38,389 nucleotides of DNA from Armatimonadota bacterium (GTDB lineage Bacteria > Armatimonadota > UBA5829 > DTJY01), in contig JANYKG010000065.1 of NCBI GenBank assembly GCA_025358205.1, forward strand, positions 1 through 38,389, given 5' to 3'. Positions within the stretch are counted from its first letter, which is position 1, and each line of letters starts with the position of its first letter. The notes beneath the pieces were generated by a model. That model worked only from the letters and a program-made list of their open reading frames with translations. It did not search any database and was not told where the DNA came from. Shown here in pieces: positions 9,704-37,684 of this stretch. The position numbers and the translations under genes were made by a program.

Positions 9704-10426
9704 TTACTTCTTTATGGAACGACGCGCGAGCCATGACAGTGATGCGACGCCGGTCAGCAGGGCAAGGACGCCGGATGGCTCCGGTACCGGTTCGCACTGG
9801 GCTGTCAGGTTGAGGTCATCTACCCACACGCGCTCTCTCAACTCTTGATTTATAAGCACTTCGACAGATACCCATCTCGGCTGGAACGGTCTGCCATCCC
9901 ACTGGAGAACCGAGGTATCTTGAACGATCGGATTGACTGTGTTCCAAACGCCGTTCTGGTTGGCGGTAAAGCTGTATTTGACCCACGGAGACCAACCTTC
10001 GGCCGGCGCTGTGGGAGCAACGTTCGAGCTGTTCCACTGCGGTCCCCACCAGTCCAACCGGAAGCTGATCGTAGACTGAGGATGCTCTGTCTGGATGGTT
10101 GTCCAATCACACATGATATTGGCCACCAGGTCAATCTTCTTCAGGTTGTAATTCCAGTTCCACAGGGGATTCTTTGTTTCGTCCACTACCTGTCGGAGCA
10201 GAAGGCTCTGAGCGGGATCCATGCAGCGAGAAGCGTAGTTGGACTGTGTTCCCGGTACCAGATCAATATGCAGGCCGCCGCCGTGCTCCCACGGACCCCA
10301 TGTGCCCGTCTGGAAATCGCCGTTCACCAGTTCGTTGATCGAACCGAGTATGGGCGTCGCAAACGCTGAGACTGCCATTGCGAGCATGACCAAAACCAGA
10401 ATGCCGGTACCCAGAATGCTTCTCAT
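9704..10426 (-). CDS. PEP-CTERM sorting domain protein
   Basis: A 240-residue secreted protein. A signal peptide occupies roughly 1-23 (ending SAFA). The body resembles a carbohydrate-binding-like jelly roll (NGDFQTGTWGPWE near residue 35; many Trp residues). The last 28 residues are PVPEPSG, a hydrophobic stretch and a basic RRSIKK end, which is the PEP-CTERM sorting signal cut by an exosortase. GGAGGT precedes the ATG. No exosortase is in the window. A binding or surface role is inferred. Confidence 0.9.
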   Translation of the reverse strand: MRSILGTGILVLVMLAMAVSAFATPILGSINELVNGDFQTGTWGPWEHGGGLHIDLVPGTQSNYASRCMDPAQSLLLRQVVDETKNPLWNWNYNLKKIDLVANIMCDWTTIQTEHPQSTISFRLDWWGPQWNSSNVAPTAPAEGWSPWVKYSFTANQNGVWNTVNPIVQDTSVLQWDGRPFQPRWVSVEVLINQELRERVWVDDLNLTAQCEPVPEPSGVLALLTGVASLSWLARRSIKK

Positions 10427-27286: not shown

Positions 27287-27325
27287 TGAGTATAGGTTGT
27301 GAATAATCCCATCCAGGAGCGAACC

Positions 27326-29467
27326 GTGACCATCAATCGCCGTCTGCTGATCCTCTCCATTATCCCCCTGCTTCTCATCATGGCTGAGGCTGCCGGGCCC
27401 GCCGCATGGAAGTTCGCCTCCATGGCGGACAGCCGTGGTGACGACAACGGCGTGAACACTGCCGCTCTAACCGCCGTCATCAATCGCGTCAACTCGGAGA
27501 ACGTGGATTTCCTACTGTTTCAGGGTGATGCCGTGACCGGCACGACCACCGATATCACTACCGCCTCGCAGATGGACAACTGGCTGGGAATCATGAGCGC
27601 GCTCAACTGCCCCTGGCGCTACACTCCGGGCAACCATGAGATTCAGACCTCTACTGCACAGGTGAATGTGCTGCGCCCCAGGGTGAATATGCCGTTGAAC
27701 GGCCCTGTGGGTGATGAAGAAATGGCCTACTCCTTCAACTACCAGAACGCGCACTTTGTGGCGCTGAACAGCGATCATTGGGGGTTGCAGCATCAGGTGC
27801 AGAACTCATGGCTGACGGCTGACCTGGCAAACTGCGACGCGATGCATATCTTTGTAATGAGCCATGACCCCGCGTATCCGGCAGGTCCGCACATAGGCAG
27901 CGCGTTGGACATGTACCCTGATAAGCGCGATGACTTCTGGAACATCCTGGCGGTCTCCGGTGTGAAAACCTACTTCTGCGGGCATGAGCATCTCTATCAG
28001 CGAAGTCAGCACAACGGCATCTATCAGATCATCAACGGCACCTGCGGAGCGCCCATTTCCACCGGCATTGCGGATACCACAGCGGAATATCAATACGTGG
28101 TTTATACCGTTGACGGCGCCAACGTGTCCGCCGTGTGCCGCTCGGATTCCGGGGCGCTGCTGGATTCATGGAGCTACACTGTGACACCGCCAACGACGCA
28201 GACGTGCGGTGCGGCAAAGCTGGCCGGCGACACTGAGTCCATCAGATTGAGGGACAAGGTCGTCACATACGCAAAAGACGATGCAATATACGTGGAGGAA
28301 GACGACCGGTCATCTGCGTTCAAGGTGGTGGGCGTCACCGGTATATCCGCGGGCGACAGAGTAAACGTTGCCGGAACGCCTCACACCAACGCGAACGGTG
28401 AACGCGAGATAGTCGGCAGCGCCATGAAGCTCTCTTCCGGCAACCCGCTTCCCGAACCTCTGGGTATGACCAACCGCGATCTGCTGGGCGGTCCTTACGG
28501 GCAGCTTCCCGGCGTAGCGGGAACGGGCGGGTGCAACAACCTATCCATGCTGGTGCGCATATGGGGAAGGGTGACTAAGATCGGCACAGGCGACAACGCG
28601 GGCATGTTTTACGTAAACGACGGCTCCGATCTCACCGACGGCACGCAGTGGGACGGCTCACCGAATGTGGGCGTCCGTGTGGTCTGGAGCGGAACGGCGA
28701 GCATGGGGGAAATGCGCGTTGTCACCGGCATCTCATCGCTATTCATGAACGGCGACAGCATCTGCCGTCGGATTCTCTGCACCGATCCCTTCGTGCTGAC
28801 GACCTGGAACGCCTACAACGATGTGGTGTACAGCAGCAACCCCGTCCACAACCATACGGCCCTAATGCCGCGCGTAACAACGTGTACCATCGGCAGCGGC
28901 AACCCCGGCCCGACTACCGGCGAACTCATTGACTTCAACACCGGCATCGGCACGGGTGTCACGGCCACTCTCACGCAGAGCGGTGGAGTAGTCTGGCAGC
29001 CCGATGCTAGCAGCCCAAACTACTCAGGAGGTGCGGACTGCAGCCCGGGAACTGACGCGTATGGCGCGTTCAATCCCACTACCGCCAGCCTCGCTGGTGT
29101 GGTCTACTATGGCGCGTCCGGGTGGTATGTTGACGTCACGTTCACCGGACTGAACCCAGCAAAGCGTTACGCGTTCACCACCAGCGCCAATCGGTTCAAC
29201 AGCACGTACAACGACCGGATAACCAAGTACACTATCTCAGGCGCTGACAGCTTCACCAACTCCAGCACGTCCGGTGTGACAGTAACCGGCGGCGGCGCGT
29301 CAATCGCGTTCTGCACAGGAAACAACACTGCTGCGGGATATGTCGCTAGATGGACGAACATCAACCCCGGCGCGGACGGTACGTTCAAGGTCAGAGCGGA
29401 ATCAGGGACTACATCTCAGGTAAAAGCCTACGCGTTCTCCGCCTTCAAGCTCACACAGTCGCCCTGA
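27326..29467 (+). CDS. secreted metallophosphoesterase with OB-like and C-terminal domains
   Basis: I start at GTG 27326, with AGGAG 6 bases upstream, giving 713 residues; the GTG at 27299 lacks a ribosome site. A signal peptide (VTINRRLLILS...MAEAAG) is followed by a calcineurin-like phosphoesterase: ADSRGDD, FQGDAV, PGNHE, SHDP and CGHEHLYQR as metal ligands. After about residue 300 come an OB-fold-like region with LVRIWGRVTKI and FYVNDGS, then a Gly/Thr-rich beta domain in the last 170 residues. It probably hydrolyses phosphoesters outside the cytoplasm. It converges on the Msr gene with 8 bases between. Confidence 0.9.
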   Translation: MTINRRLLILSIIPLLLIMAEAAGPAAWKFASMADSRGDDNGVNTAALTAVINRVNSENVDFLLFQGDAVTGTTTDITTASQMDNWLGIMSALNCPWRYTPGNHEIQTSTAQVNVLRPRVNMPLNGPVGDEEMAYSFNYQNAHFVALNSDHWGLQHQVQNSWLTADLANCDAMHIFVMSHDPAYPAGPHIGSALDMYPDKRDDFWNILAVSGVKTYFCGHEHLYQRSQHNGIYQIINGTCGAPISTGIADTTAEYQYVVYTVDGANVSAVCRSDSGALLDSWSYTVTPPTTQTCGAAKLAGDTESIRLRDKVVTYAKDDAIYVEEDDRSSAFKVVGVTGISAGDRVNVAGTPHTNANGEREIVGSAMKLSSGNPLPEPLGMTNRDLLGGPYGQLPGVAGTGGCNNLSMLVRIWGRVTKIGTGDNAGMFYVNDGSDLTDGTQWDGSPNVGVRVVWSGTASMGEMRVVTGISSLFMNGDSICRRILCTDPFVLTTWNAYNDVVYSSNPVHNHTALMPRVTTCTIGSGNPGPTTGELIDFNTGIGTGVTATLTQSGGVVWQPDASSPNYSGGADCSPGTDAYGAFNPTTASLAGVVYYGASGWYVDVTFTGLNPAKRYAFTTSANRFNSTYNDRITKYTISGADSFTNSSTSGVTVTGGGASIAFCTGNNTAAGYVARWTNINPGADGTFKVRAESGTTSQVKAYAFSAFKLTQSP

Positions 29468-30656: not shown

Positions 30657-30739
30657 TGGTTGGATGAAGGGTATATCAGTACGATGGTTAAGCGGCCGTG
30701 CGACGGCCGGCGATCACTATTTTTCAGGAGGAACTAAGG

Positions 30740-32140
30740 ATGGTTTCCAAAAGAAGAAGTACCTTCAAGTTTGGTTTGATCTGCTTATCGGCTCTACTGC
30801 TTCTAGCGGTGTGCAGCATCGCGTTCAGCGAGGACTGCATTAGCTTTGACCCCACCAAGGTTGAGGCAAAGCAGATCAGCGGCAACTGGAAAGTCGTGCA
30901 GGGCGACATGTGGATGCTGGACTTCGGCGCCAGCAAAGAGAATGCAGTGAAAGCTGTTCAGATCATTCAGCACTACAAGATGGATTCGCAGTGCTTTGTG
31001 GGCAGACCAAATGCCCCTATGCAGTACTATCTGGTCAATGGCAAAGCGCCGGTCGGCCCGTTCCCCGGCGAAGATGCCATCCCGTTCAACCCCAAGACCA
31101 CCGAAGCCAAACAGATCAACGGCGCCTGGAAAGTGGTGGACGGCGATCACTGGATGCTGGACTTCGGAAAATCCGAAGCCAATGCCAATGAGGCTGTGAG
31201 CATCATCAAGAAGTATGAATTCAACAACATCTGCTTCGTCGGACGGCCAAACGCGCCGATGATGTACTTCCGCAAAGATAAGCCGAAGCTGCTGTTACCG
31301 GGCTATGGCAGGCAAATACCGGGACCGGCGATGAAGGAAGACTGCATCAAGTTCAACCCAAACCAGGTTGAGGCAAAACAGATCAGCGGCAACTGGAAGG
31401 TTGTGCAGGGCGACATGTGGATGCTGGACTTTGGCGCCAGCAAGGAACAGGCTGAGAAGGCCGTTAAGATCATCAAGTTCTACATGATGGATCAGCAGTG
31501 CTTCGTCGGGCGTCCGAATCCCCCGATGCAGTATTATCTGACGAACGGCAAAGCCCCGGCGGGCGAGTTCCCCGGCGAAGATGCTATTCCGTTCAACCCA
31601 AAAACCACCGAAGCCAAACAGATCAACGGCGCCTGGAAAGTAGTGGACGGCGATCACTGGATGCTGGACTTTGGCGCGAATAAAGAAAACGCCGACACTG
31701 CCGTGAAGATCATCAAGAAGTACGAGTTCAACCACATCTGTTTCGTTGGTCGGCCAAACGCACCGATGATGTACTTCCGCAAGGATAAGCTGCGGCTTAT
31801 CAAGCCGGGTAACATCGGTGTACTGCAGTCATTGCCGAATATAAGCGTGACGTTGAAGGCGAACCCCAGCAAATACCATGGTGATTGTCCATCCACCATT
31901 ACATTTGACGGCGCGATCACTGCAGACAGGGCGTGTGAGGTCAAGTACACGTTCCCCCGGAGCGACGGCGCTACCGGCCCCACCTTCACCCTGAAGTTTG
32001 ACGCAGCCGGAACTCAGAAGGTGATGACCACCTGGCAGCTTGGTGCGGATTACAAGGGCTGGCAGACGCTGAAGGTGACTGCACCCGTCACGGTGGAGTC
32101 AAAGATGGCTGAGTTCGACCTTAAGTGCAAGGGTAACTAA
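30740..32140 (+). CDS. secreted four-repeat protein with C-terminal beta domain
   Basis: A 466-residue protein starting at ATG 30740, with AGGAGG 8 bases upstream; the earlier ATG at 30698 lacks a site. A signal peptide ends near AFS (about 28). Four repeats of about 80-88 residues follow (about 31-111, 112-199, 200-280, 281-365), each with EAKQI-G-WKVV-GD-WMLDFG and a conserved CFVGRPN-PM. Repeats 1+2 recur as 3+4 with an exact 507-base step. A final Ig-like domain (TLKANPSKYHGDCP...) is of a kind common on secreted bacterial proteins. Binding is a likely role; none is shown. Confidence 0.88.
   Translation: MVSKRRSTFKFGLICLSALLLLAVCSIAFSEDCISFDPTKVEAKQISGNWKVVQGDMWMLDFGASKENAVKAVQIIQHYKMDSQCFVGRPNAPMQYYLVNGKAPVGPFPGEDAIPFNPKTTEAKQINGAWKVVDGDHWMLDFGKSEANANEAVSIIKKYEFNNICFVGRPNAPMMYFRKDKPKLLLPGYGRQIPGPAMKEDCIKFNPNQVEAKQISGNWKVVQGDMWMLDFGASKEQAEKAVKIIKFYMMDQQCFVGRPNPPMQYYLTNGKAPAGEFPGEDAIPFNPKTTEAKQINGAWKVVDGDHWMLDFGANKENADTAVKIIKKYEFNHICFVGRPNAPMMYFRKDKLRLIKPGNIGVLQSLPNISVTLKANPSKYHGDCPSTITFDGAITADRACEVKYTFPRSDGATGPTFTLKFDAAGTQKVMTTWQLGADYKGWQTLKVTAPVTVESKMAEFDLKCKGN
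30830..31843 (+). repeat. 507-base tandem duplication within the repeat protein gene
   Basis: The codon at 30830 (start of repeat 1) corresponds to the codon at 31337 (start of repeat 3), exactly 507 bases or 169 codons apart. Long stretches of repeats 2 and 4 are nearly identical in DNA, such as those encoding PFNPKTTEAKQINGAWKVV. A recent duplication of a two-repeat unit explains this. Confidence 0.85.
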
Positions 32141-32174: not shown

Positions 32175-32205
32175 AAGGACTCCGGATCACCTCCGGAGTC
32201 CTTTC
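32175..32205 (+). terminator. terminator after the repeat protein gene
   Basis: GGACTCCGGA (32177-32186), a 5-base loop and TCCGGAGTCC (32192-32201) form a perfect 10-base stem followed by TTTC. It lies about 35 bases after the stop. The U-tract is short. Confidence 0.8.
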
Positions 32206-32356: not shown

Positions 32357-33259
32357 ATGCGATTCAAATTGGGTGTATCTGTTAGAGTAATAGTGGTTTT
32401 GGCACTTGCGGCTGGCTTCACGGCGCTGTTTTCCGTGACGGTGAATGCGGCTCCGTCTTTAGACACAGACCGGCCTGTCGTCATAGATGCTCTGACTGCG
32501 GTTGTCAGCGATGCTTCGGATCTTTGTGATGGTGATATGGGTTGGTCCGGCGGCCGATTCTGTCTCATGGGTCGGTTCATGGACGGCGGCTCTTCCATCA
32601 CCAATACGGAGTATCTCGAGGCCGACAAGGAGTACGTGTTTCTTGTTGATAACGGCGTATGTGATGGAGAGATCAGCATCACCGTTAAGGACCAGAAAGG
32701 CACCGTGCTTGACACGGATTCGAGTGAGATAGGCATGGCGACAGCGATAGTCTTCGCGCCGGAGGACGGCAAATACGACGTTACTGTAGAGGTGGGAGAC
32801 GGCACCGCTGAATGCTTCTGCGCATTGGGTATGTTCGAAGACGGCGGCGTTCCGTTTTCGGCTGACGTGGTGGCGAGATCCATCAGTGTCTTCGACGCCG
32901 GCTTGGAGGAGTTTAGCAAAGACGACGGCGGCTGCGAGTACAGCTTTCCGCGAACGGACAACCTGTGGACTGTCCTCGCGATGATCGGCGGTAAGGGCGC
33001 GAGTGCGAAGATCAGCGGCCTGACTCCGGGTGATGGTCTGCACGGCTTCCTAGCCTCAACGGGCGACATGAACACGACGATCTCCGCCGAAGTTCTGGAT
33101 TCATCTGGCGAGAAGATCAAAGGCGAAGAGGACACCGGTGTGGTTATGCCGGGGGTGACCACCGAGGCCGGTAAGTCCTATGGTCTTCGGATAACCCAGA
33201 AGTCGTCCGACGATCCTGCCATGGTGGTCGGCAGCATCCTCGACGCAACTCTGCATTAG
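32357..33259 (+). CDS. secreted protein of unknown function
   Basis: A 300-residue protein starting at ATG 32357 with AAAGGA 9 bases upstream; the frame open from 32210 crosses the spacer and is not used. A Sec signal (RFKLGVSVRVIVVLALAAGF...VNAAP) is clear. The rest is acidic and beta-rich, with two similar segments (CLMGRFMDGGSSI and CALGMFEDGGVPF) suggesting an old internal duplication, and a few cysteines that could pair. No family is recognised. It follows another secreted protein gene but has its own spacer and comes after a terminator. Confidence 0.8.
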   Translation: MRFKLGVSVRVIVVLALAAGFTALFSVTVNAAPSLDTDRPVVIDALTAVVSDASDLCDGDMGWSGGRFCLMGRFMDGGSSITNTEYLEADKEYVFLVDNGVCDGEISITVKDQKGTVLDTDSSEIGMATAIVFAPEDGKYDVTVEVGDGTAECFCALGMFEDGGVPFSADVVARSISVFDAGLEEFSKDDGGCEYSFPRTDNLWTVLAMIGGKGASAKISGLTPGDGLHGFLASTGDMNTTISAEVLDSSGEKIKGEEDTGVVMPGVTTEAGKSYGLRITQKSSDDPAMVVGSILDATLH

Positions 33260-36586: not shown

Positions 36587-37684
36587 TCACGATCTCCTGC
36601 GCCTGAAAAATGCGGCAAAACCGGTCGTCAGGCTGACAAGCGTCAACATTGAGGAAGGCTCAGGCACCGGCACCGGCACCGGTTCCCAGAGAACGGCTTC
36701 CATGTTCTGGTATTCGTTGTATCCCGCGCCCCCCACGATCTGGCCGAAGTCGTTGATGTCACGCGCTTCCGATGGCATACCTGCACCTGCCAGCGCGCCC
36801 AGGTTCACGGAGAATGTCCCATCTATGCTCCACAGCCACGCGCTGTCACCGGCTGTACCCACAATCAGCCCATGGTTGTTTATGCCATGTGCTGTGCCTA
36901 TGCCAAGATCGGCAATGATAGATCCATCGGTGTCCCATGCTACGGCATGAGTGCCTGAACTGCCGACTACTATGCCGGAGTCGTTTATCGCTTCTGCTTG
37001 GCAGTTTTGCCCCGCTGTGAGAGGCTGCAACAGCGTATTACTCCCTTGGCTCCAAACATACGAGCGAGTTCTTGTCCACTGTCCATTCTCGTGTAGTGAT
37101 TCGACCCAGGATATGCGGCCATTGTTGTTTATGTCCGTGGCGTAGCTGTATGAGGTGGACGTGCCGCCTATCATCTGTGCCACGACACTATCTTGCCAGA
37201 GCACTGCGTAGTTGTTGGATGTACCGACTACCCATCCATTGTTGTTAAGAGCATAGGCAAACGCATCACGGCCCCCTTCTGGCAAGGGGTTCAGTTGAAT
37301 CAACTCGCCATTCGCTTCACGGAGTACTCCTGTGCTTCGTCCGTAGTCAGGGACAGCCGTGCCGACGACTTGACCGTTATTGTTCATACCACCAGGCAAG
37401 TCAAACTGGCCTTCCACCCGAATGTCAACCATTCCTGAAGTGCGGTCCCACAGAAATGCACCTCTAGTGTCGTTTGTTATTTCATTGTAAGTGACTGAGT
37501 AGCCTACTGCCTGTCCGGCGTTGTTCAGGTGCAGTGCACAACTCTGACCATCGCCAGACAGAAAGTCCAGTCGGTTCATCTGATAAGACGCTGAAGCTTG
37601 CGTGGTGGTTGCTGCCAGAAAGCAAACAGCGGCAAATGTGATGCGAATGATATTCACAATACGTACCCGCCCTTTCCTCATCAT
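36587..37684 (-). CDS. HAF-repeat PEP-CTERM protein
   Basis: A 365-residue secreted protein. A signal peptide ends near ASAS (about 33). The body consists of HAF-type repeats of about 40-50 residues, recognisable by ALNNNGWVVG, AINDSGIVVGSSG, GINNHGLIVGTAG and DINDFGQIVGGAG, each with a nearby A-x-LW. These form a beta-propeller-like array. The last 27 residues are PVPEPSS, a hydrophobic stretch and RRRRS, a PEP-CTERM sorting signal. Its ATG overlaps the previous stop as ATGA, so the two genes are translationally coupled. No exosortase is nearby. Confidence 0.92.
   Translation of the reverse strand: MMRKGRVRIVNIIRITFAAVCFLAATTTQASASYQMNRLDFLSGDGQSCALHLNNAGQAVGYSVTYNEITNDTRGAFLWDRTSGMVDIRVEGQFDLPGGMNNNGQVVGTAVPDYGRSTGVLREANGELIQLNPLPEGGRDAFAYALNNNGWVVGTSNNYAVLWQDSVVAQMIGGTSTSYSYATDINNNGRISWVESLHENGQWTRTRSYVWSQGSNTLLQPLTAGQNCQAEAINDSGIVVGSSGTHAVAWDTDGSIIADLGIGTAHGINNHGLIVGTAGDSAWLWSIDGTFSVNLGALAGAGMPSEARDINDFGQIVGGAGYNEYQNMEAVLWEPVPVPVPEPSSMLTLVSLTTGFAAFFRRRRS

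Follow-up and report, generated by a model that had tools for sequence, protein, structure and literature searches.

The gene studied here is a single open frame in the window, by which we mean the whole 38,389-nucleotide stretch of DNA that was analyzed. Its product consists largely of four repeat units of ~73 aa, R1–R4, which span residues 32–353 of 466 and are followed by a C-terminal domain (Table 1). The initial annotation had described a secreted protein made up mostly of repeats, and both descriptions agree with what we found, a probable signal peptide lying ahead of the first unit.

Table 1 The repeat-protein gene and its immediate flanks, in window coordinates
Feature	Position	Strand	Basis
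AGGAGG, ribosome-binding-site-like, ahead of ATG 30740	30726..30731	+	sequence
CDS, secreted repeat protein, 466 aa	30740..32140	+	single open frame
Sec signal peptide, probable	30740..30829	+	by eye; hydrophobic 12-mer mean 3.1
R1, lobe A of pair 1	30833..31051	+	
R2, lobe B of pair 1	31073..31291	+	
R3, lobe A of pair 2, 507 bp past R1	31340..31558	+	
R4, lobe B of pair 2, 507 bp past R2	31580..31798	+	
C-terminal domain, like part of a secreted Nonomuraea protein	31826..32131	+	tblastn, query residues 363-464
12-bp hairpin behind the gene, possible terminator, weak T tail	32175..32203	+	-21.5 kcal/mol for the 47-base stretch folded

A repeat search of the DNA returned four 164-nt copies spaced by 240, 267 and 240, and two 300-nt copies spaced by 507 with 82% identity. 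Positions 30833–31288 and 31340–31795 are identical at 374 of 456 bases without an indel, and directly outside this 456-bp block agreement drops to 22/93 and 20/45 bases. The best 300-nt self-identity within the coding sequence was 0.857, whereas none of 20 codon shuffles exceeded 0.41; this excludes a chance origin of the repeat. Together, the indel-free match, the loss of agreement outside it and the shuffle result establish that the 507-bp duplication is real and that its edges are the edges of a repeat pair. The exact 507-base offset of units 1+2 from units 3+4, as first noticed, therefore stands for both R1–R3 and R2–R4, and the motif CFVGRPN[A/P]PM is present in all four units, CFVGRPN starting at 30992, 31232, 31499 and 31739. 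In contrast, the description of the DNA as near-identical in long stretches was too strong: identity is 82% overall, and the longest identical runs between the copies measure 38, 29 and 29 bp. An assembly artefact, which had been named as another possible source of the array, is unlikely since the copies disagree at 82 of the 456 sites and both ends of the contig (1–38389) are well away from the array.

The C-terminal domain, which we take to be Ig-like, matched two of the 291 genomes of the phylum, including the window's own; in a smaller set of sequences, the C-terminal 112 aa were 31% identical to the Nonomuraea protein over 107 aa. The hairpin behind the gene was not listed by a consensus terminator scan. 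The product of the next gene (32357–33259, +) is probably secreted too; it contains a weak repeat of its own (GRFMDGG/GMFEDGG) and has no Pfam match over the cut-off. The second gene upstream of the repeat gene is that of a probable secreted calcineurin-like phosphoesterase (27299–29467, +; Pfam Metallophos, E 5e-10). Two further secreted proteins in the window (9704–10426, − and 36587–37684, −) end in VPEPSG or VPEPSS, a hydrophobic stretch and a basic end, tails that are presumably PEP-CTERM-like.

Searches with the whole protein had little reach. No match was found among 60 relatives, and a scan of genome contigs gave two candidate stretches of which neither was confirmed, so that a lobe profile was needed instead. 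The whole-protein searches located lobes only on Rhodovulum plasmids; the plasmid search returned four records, among them Nonomuraea, which matched the C-terminal domain only. Viral contigs gave 22 candidate stretches, none of them confirmed, and phages gave no match. Lobes were picked up by the profile in 7 of the phylum's 291 genomes, one of them the window's own; the remaining four genomes of the order to which it belongs had no copy. Scanning 84,980 species genomes (one genome per species) yielded 64 loci, 57 bacterial and 7 archaeal. A phylum was given in the taxonomy table for 58 of the 64, which cover 18 named phyla with Pseudomonadota the commonest (25); Asgard and haloarchaea are among the lineages with the pair. 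In a sample of 289 Alphaproteobacteria four genomes matched, so the module is widespread but sparse. Because the large scan required the peptide [IQH]CFVGRP[DNG][PA], the conservation of the motif, mainly that of lobe B, is partly due to how the loci were selected, and the spread is a lower bound.

Running a lobe HMM on 68 sources, with six loci omitted that repeated contigs already included, gave 68 frames carrying a lobe. Full-length lobes numbered two in 49 frames, four in 7, six in 2, three in 1, one in 7 and zero in 2, and several of the frames with zero, one or three lobes are cut by contig ends. For 133 labelled lobes with a labelled best match in another protein, this match was of the same type in 125 cases (62 A–A, 63 B–B) and of the other type in 8. 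The window lobes R1 and R3 matched best the A lobe of a Geobacter protein (L074), and R2 and R4 the B lobe of a Phycisphaerae protein (L055). Since lobe counts are mostly 2, 4 or 6 and best matches are so largely between like lobes, sequence comparison identifies the true unit as the pair, lobe A then lobe B joined by a short linker, ~150 aa in all, and not the single ~73-aa repeat. The split between lobes A and B is evidently an early one, older than the parting of most sampled lineages.

The A–B linker measures 8–11 aa in nearly all frames. In 47 of the 57 proteins with an assigned pair, a count made without the two Rhodovulum pairs and their longer linker, the chain ends no more than 3 aa past the last pair, which bears out the initial annotation in treating this repeat as a tail found on secreted proteins. 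The second Cys of each lobe is kept in 56 of 56 alignment rows; the first is absent from 4 rows in lobe A and 15 rows in lobe B, so a within-lobe disulphide is not obligatory. Against the family profile (A3) the window's two pairs scored 237 and 232 bits (E 1.6e-70 and 8.2e-69), partly by construction as both are rows of the profile. The window protein has the ~73-aa lobes in A–B order, the short linker and CxVGRP in each lobe. It does not have the pair exactly at the C-terminus, 115 aa following its second pair, but this is a majority trait of the family and not a strict one.

AlphaFold2 gave confident models both for the pair (56 rows; pLDDT 94.7, pTM 0.88) and for a single lobe (48 rows; pLDDT 92.6, pTM 0.79). 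Each lobe is predicted to be strand-rich with one helix: a strand, a three-strand meander, the helix and two strands (b-b-b-b-a-b-b). In these models the order of elements resembles that of an OB barrel, with which it is consistent without being proof. OB-fold proteins share the strand/helix order of the lobe (b-b-b-a-b-b core), with Z of at most 3.3, Foldseek E of at least 0.2 and no sequence relation shown. Foldseek found no match in the PDB at E<=0.001 (best 0.094 and 0.20), nor among viral models, where a few short phage proteins superposed over ~40 residues at E 0.4–0.7. VIA-align on the top Foldseek chains gave Z of 2.0–3.3, 3.3 being the maximum for either model; we take several of the weak lobe rows to be OB folds. 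The lack of a fold match does not by itself mean a new fold.

By sequence, the window protein had no match in the PDB; for profile A3 two rows were returned there (E 0.013 and 0.97), and no stretch of either passed alone. Pfam and NCBIfam gave only sub-cut-off rows for the window protein, and the PASTA domain (PF03793) had no match in it. Each Pfam family found in the 60 carriers was matched by 3 of them at most, and the same ceiling applied to the 25 of 39 NCBIfam families listed; none of those families therefore models the pair. Comparing the lobe with DUF1508 (PF07411) and DUF2188 (PF09954) by hhalign gave probabilities of 0.15 and 0.10, from alignments that comprised just 2 and 3 rows. For P0001, the PHROGs search gave rows (best E 7.9e-9) that contained no stretch passing alone and were treated as repeat-summing artefacts. 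The strings CFVGRP, CFVGR, CYVGRP, CFIGRP and CFIGRN were not found in literature text, to which we attach little weight because such letters are seldom printed. In the Pfam and NCBIfam libraries that were searched, the pair thus lacks a family model, and no solved structure is clearly related to it.

At the protein level R1 and R3 are 82% identical and R2 and R4 86%, compared with 57% for R1/R2 and 61% for R3/R4. Between pair 1 and pair 2 of the window, 44.3 of 89 synonymous sites have changed (pS 0.50), giving a dS of 0.82. The dN is 0.11 and dN/dS about 0.13: the protein sequence of the pairs is kept by selection. A recent tandem duplication, as the initial annotation had it, is expected to leave low synonymous divergence, and the window copies do not have it. 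A young array in Marinifilum (L062) has a dS of 0.12, and the orthologous first pairs of two Zipacnadia genomes are separated by 0.28. Judged by synonymous divergence, then, the doubling in the window is old. Gene conversion between the copies was considered and set aside: there is no clear tract, and a run of at least 38 bp, the length of the longest identical one, arose in 1234 of 20,000 codon-column shuffles, which does not mark it as clearly unusual.

We built a tree of 68 pairs from 149 columns, with two Rhodovulum pairs added by hand and one locus on a cut contig (L039) dropped; its bootstrap was not fully settled. The two pairs of the window are sisters at 100/99. Pairs of the same protein also joined in Marinifilum (L062, 100/97), Phycisphaerae (L055, 100/99) and Zymogenaceae (L056, 99/94). 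On this tree, pair 1 and pair 2 of the window arose by duplication in the gene's own lineage, after it had parted from every sampled relative; the pair-wise duplication described in the initial annotation is supported. Read in the same way, the doublings in the window, L062, L055 and L056 are separate and lineage-specific, four in all. In contrast, the pairs of Wenzhouxiangella L064 and Gammaproteobacteria L067, and those of Zipacnadia L036 and L037, each grouped with the counterpart in the other genome, so those arrays predate the genome splits. A spacing of 507 bp is also present in L062 and in the Zipacnadia genome G282; it recurs because ~151 aa and a linker of ~18 aa add up to it.

Pair number varies by lineage: G318 has one pair and G301, of the same order, two, and the Zipacnadia genomes G280 and G282 have three. 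Arrays do change by whole pairs over evolutionary time. The comparison of repeat counts between relatives that the initial annotation had suggested came out on both sides. Lineages do differ, with one, two or three pairs, in keeping with its expectation; the genes of G280 and G282, both read end to end, each hold three diverged pairs, close to the fixed number of old repeats that it had set against its own view. In a third Zipacnadia genome (G284, L038 1173–1328), the last B lobe is shortened by an in-frame internal deletion relative to G280 and G282; the contig is 3.9 kb long, and this may be a real loss or an assembly error.

The counts of 7/291 and 0/4 given above, together with the position of the window's pairs in the tree, where they are placed with Geobacter, Phycisphaerae and others, raised the possibility of horizontal transfer into the window's genome. 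We do not claim it: by the AU test a same-phylum clade is not rejected (p 0.137, 0.088), and the GC content of the gene is only slightly low (0.539 vs 0.576).

Stand-alone arrays like that of the window occur in the same phylum, in Ca. Zipacnadia (G280, G282 and G284), a lineage assigned to Armatimonadota by the record taxonomy and in the part of PMC10290634 available to us. As in the window, a signal peptide is followed by tandem A–B pairs and little else. Unlike the window protein, these arrays have three pairs rather than two and lack the C-terminal domain; their pairs are not sister to the window's in the tree, but a joint clade is not rejected.

In other carriers the pair is attached to a variety of partners. 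The parts fused before or behind it in 60 carriers include astacin (3), subtilase (3), C25, papain C1, HAD (2), TIR, CARDB (3), cohesin (2), PASTA and DUF6345. The N-terminal parts of at least 90 aa, present in 42 proteins, fell into 20 groups by blastp, one of which is a cut contig starting inside an array; the largest (15) is an unnamed domain of Pseudomonadota and one Geobacter. In Geobacter L072 and L074 and in L139 (G318), the pair follows ~370 aa that contain HG and C motifs, which we take to be like those of clan CD peptidases; in L072 these ~370 aa had no Pfam match. A Ponticaulis sp. locus (L102 6828–8198) encodes a TIR-domain protein, an unusual partner, that ends in a diverged A–B pair. 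The Hermodarchaeota proteins L050 and L051 had no clear signal peptide, and some carriers, these two and the TIR protein, may not be secreted. A review of astacins (PMC9848320) describes bacterial and archaeal members as scattered and includes Halobacteriales archaeon QH_6_64_20, the organism of our locus L089; we noticed no mention of the A–B pair in the part of that review available to us. PASTA, CARDB and similar accessory domains resemble the pair in being short non-catalytic modules on many unrelated extracellular proteins, and some carriers have both, but no Pfam model of theirs matches the pair.

The Rhodovulum carriers are annotated as PASTA domain-containing proteins (WP_080618143.1, WP_052678165.1), a name that refers to PASTA and not to the pair. 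They share the A–B pair with the window protein, their first lobe being 42–45% identical to R4. Unlike it, they have only one pair, exactly C-terminal and with a longer linker, and this pair is preceded by two PASTA domains and a membrane segment. In L005 (10789–26385; Rhodovulum sp. MB263 plasmid pRSMBA), and also in L003, the gene with the pair is the second one after baseplate J in a phage-tail-like cluster with VgrG, PAAR, sheath, tube, gpV and gp25 genes. The Rhodovulum pair protein may belong to a contractile injection particle, either as its anchor in the membrane or as a part that faces the surface. A general link of the pair with such clusters was considered and rejected: seven Rhodovulum tail proteins, compared with the loci by tblastn, had no match outside the Rhodovulum loci. 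Literature searches joining contractile injection systems with the PASTA domain or with Rhodovulum sulfidophilum found nothing on topic.

Our best explanation, to which we give an even chance, is that the window gene encodes a secreted, probably non-catalytic protein of two tandem A–B modules (~150 aa each) and a ~110-aa C-terminal domain, in which the pair would bind or anchor and its doubling would serve avidity. The pair would bind a surface or extracellular ligand, or anchor its carrier; tandem pairs would raise avidity, stand-alone arrays being multivalent versions; and the second pair would have arisen when unequal crossing-over or a similar slip copied the 507-bp block. What suggests an attachment module is the fusion of the pair to unrelated secreted enzymes, its occurrence in partner-free secreted forms and its presence in organisms with different envelopes. 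Elsewhere the pair mostly ends the chains of proteins of unrelated kinds. Against attachment, no residue pattern points to a particular ligand, the fold comparison went no higher than Z 3.3, some carriers may stay inside the cell, and an exact C-terminal position is what would be expected of a sorting signal. More tentatively, and as something we regard as possible rather than probable, the pair could be an undescribed mobile attachment domain of Bacteria and Archaea: a two-lobed C-terminal tag by which many effectors of unrelated kinds (proteases and hydrolases, a TIR protein and a phage-tail-like particle) would be fixed to a single shared type of surface or polymer. The window and Zipacnadia proteins would then be free-standing multivalent forms of it that arose as whole pairs were duplicated repeatedly.

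The frequent C-terminal position (47/57) and the many unrelated carriers would also suit a sorting or export signal with a role like that of T9SS or PEP-CTERM tails, extra copies being neutral. We consider this improbable. Carriers are found in archaea, Chloroflexota and many diderm phyla, among which a common export system is not expected, and the different envelopes of these bacteria and archaea argue against a system-specific signal. Moreover, the residues after the pair number 115 in the window protein, 660 in L062 and 1036 in L059; L062 has a T9SS-like tail of its own (below the cut-off); and a signal that is a folded domain of ~150 aa would be large, although the tails of T9SS proteins are folded as well. 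It is more doubtful still that the pair inhibits, chaperones or regulates proteases, within the carrier or in trans. Among the carriers there are several peptidases, from different clans (S8, C1, C25, astacin), and the HG and C motifs of the L072, L074 and G318 N-terminal parts fit such a role, but no peptidase domain was found in most carriers, and a single inhibitor fold for unrelated clans is unlikely. Just as slim, in our estimate, is the chance that the window holds a recently duplicated, actively changing array that generates length variation in a surface protein. The lineage differences in pair number, the four separate doublings, the young Marinifilum array and the persistence of identical runs of 38 and 29 bp speak for it; the dS of 0.82, the lack of a clear conversion tract and the three pairs fixed in two complete Zipacnadia genes speak against it.

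The duplication itself is ordinary. The interest lies in the unit, a confidently predicted pair of ~150 aa in 18 named phyla, archaea included. The stand-alone carriers, the protease-linked ones and the one beside the phage-tail-like cluster offer direct tests of its role, and a named model would annotate many secreted proteins now called hypothetical.
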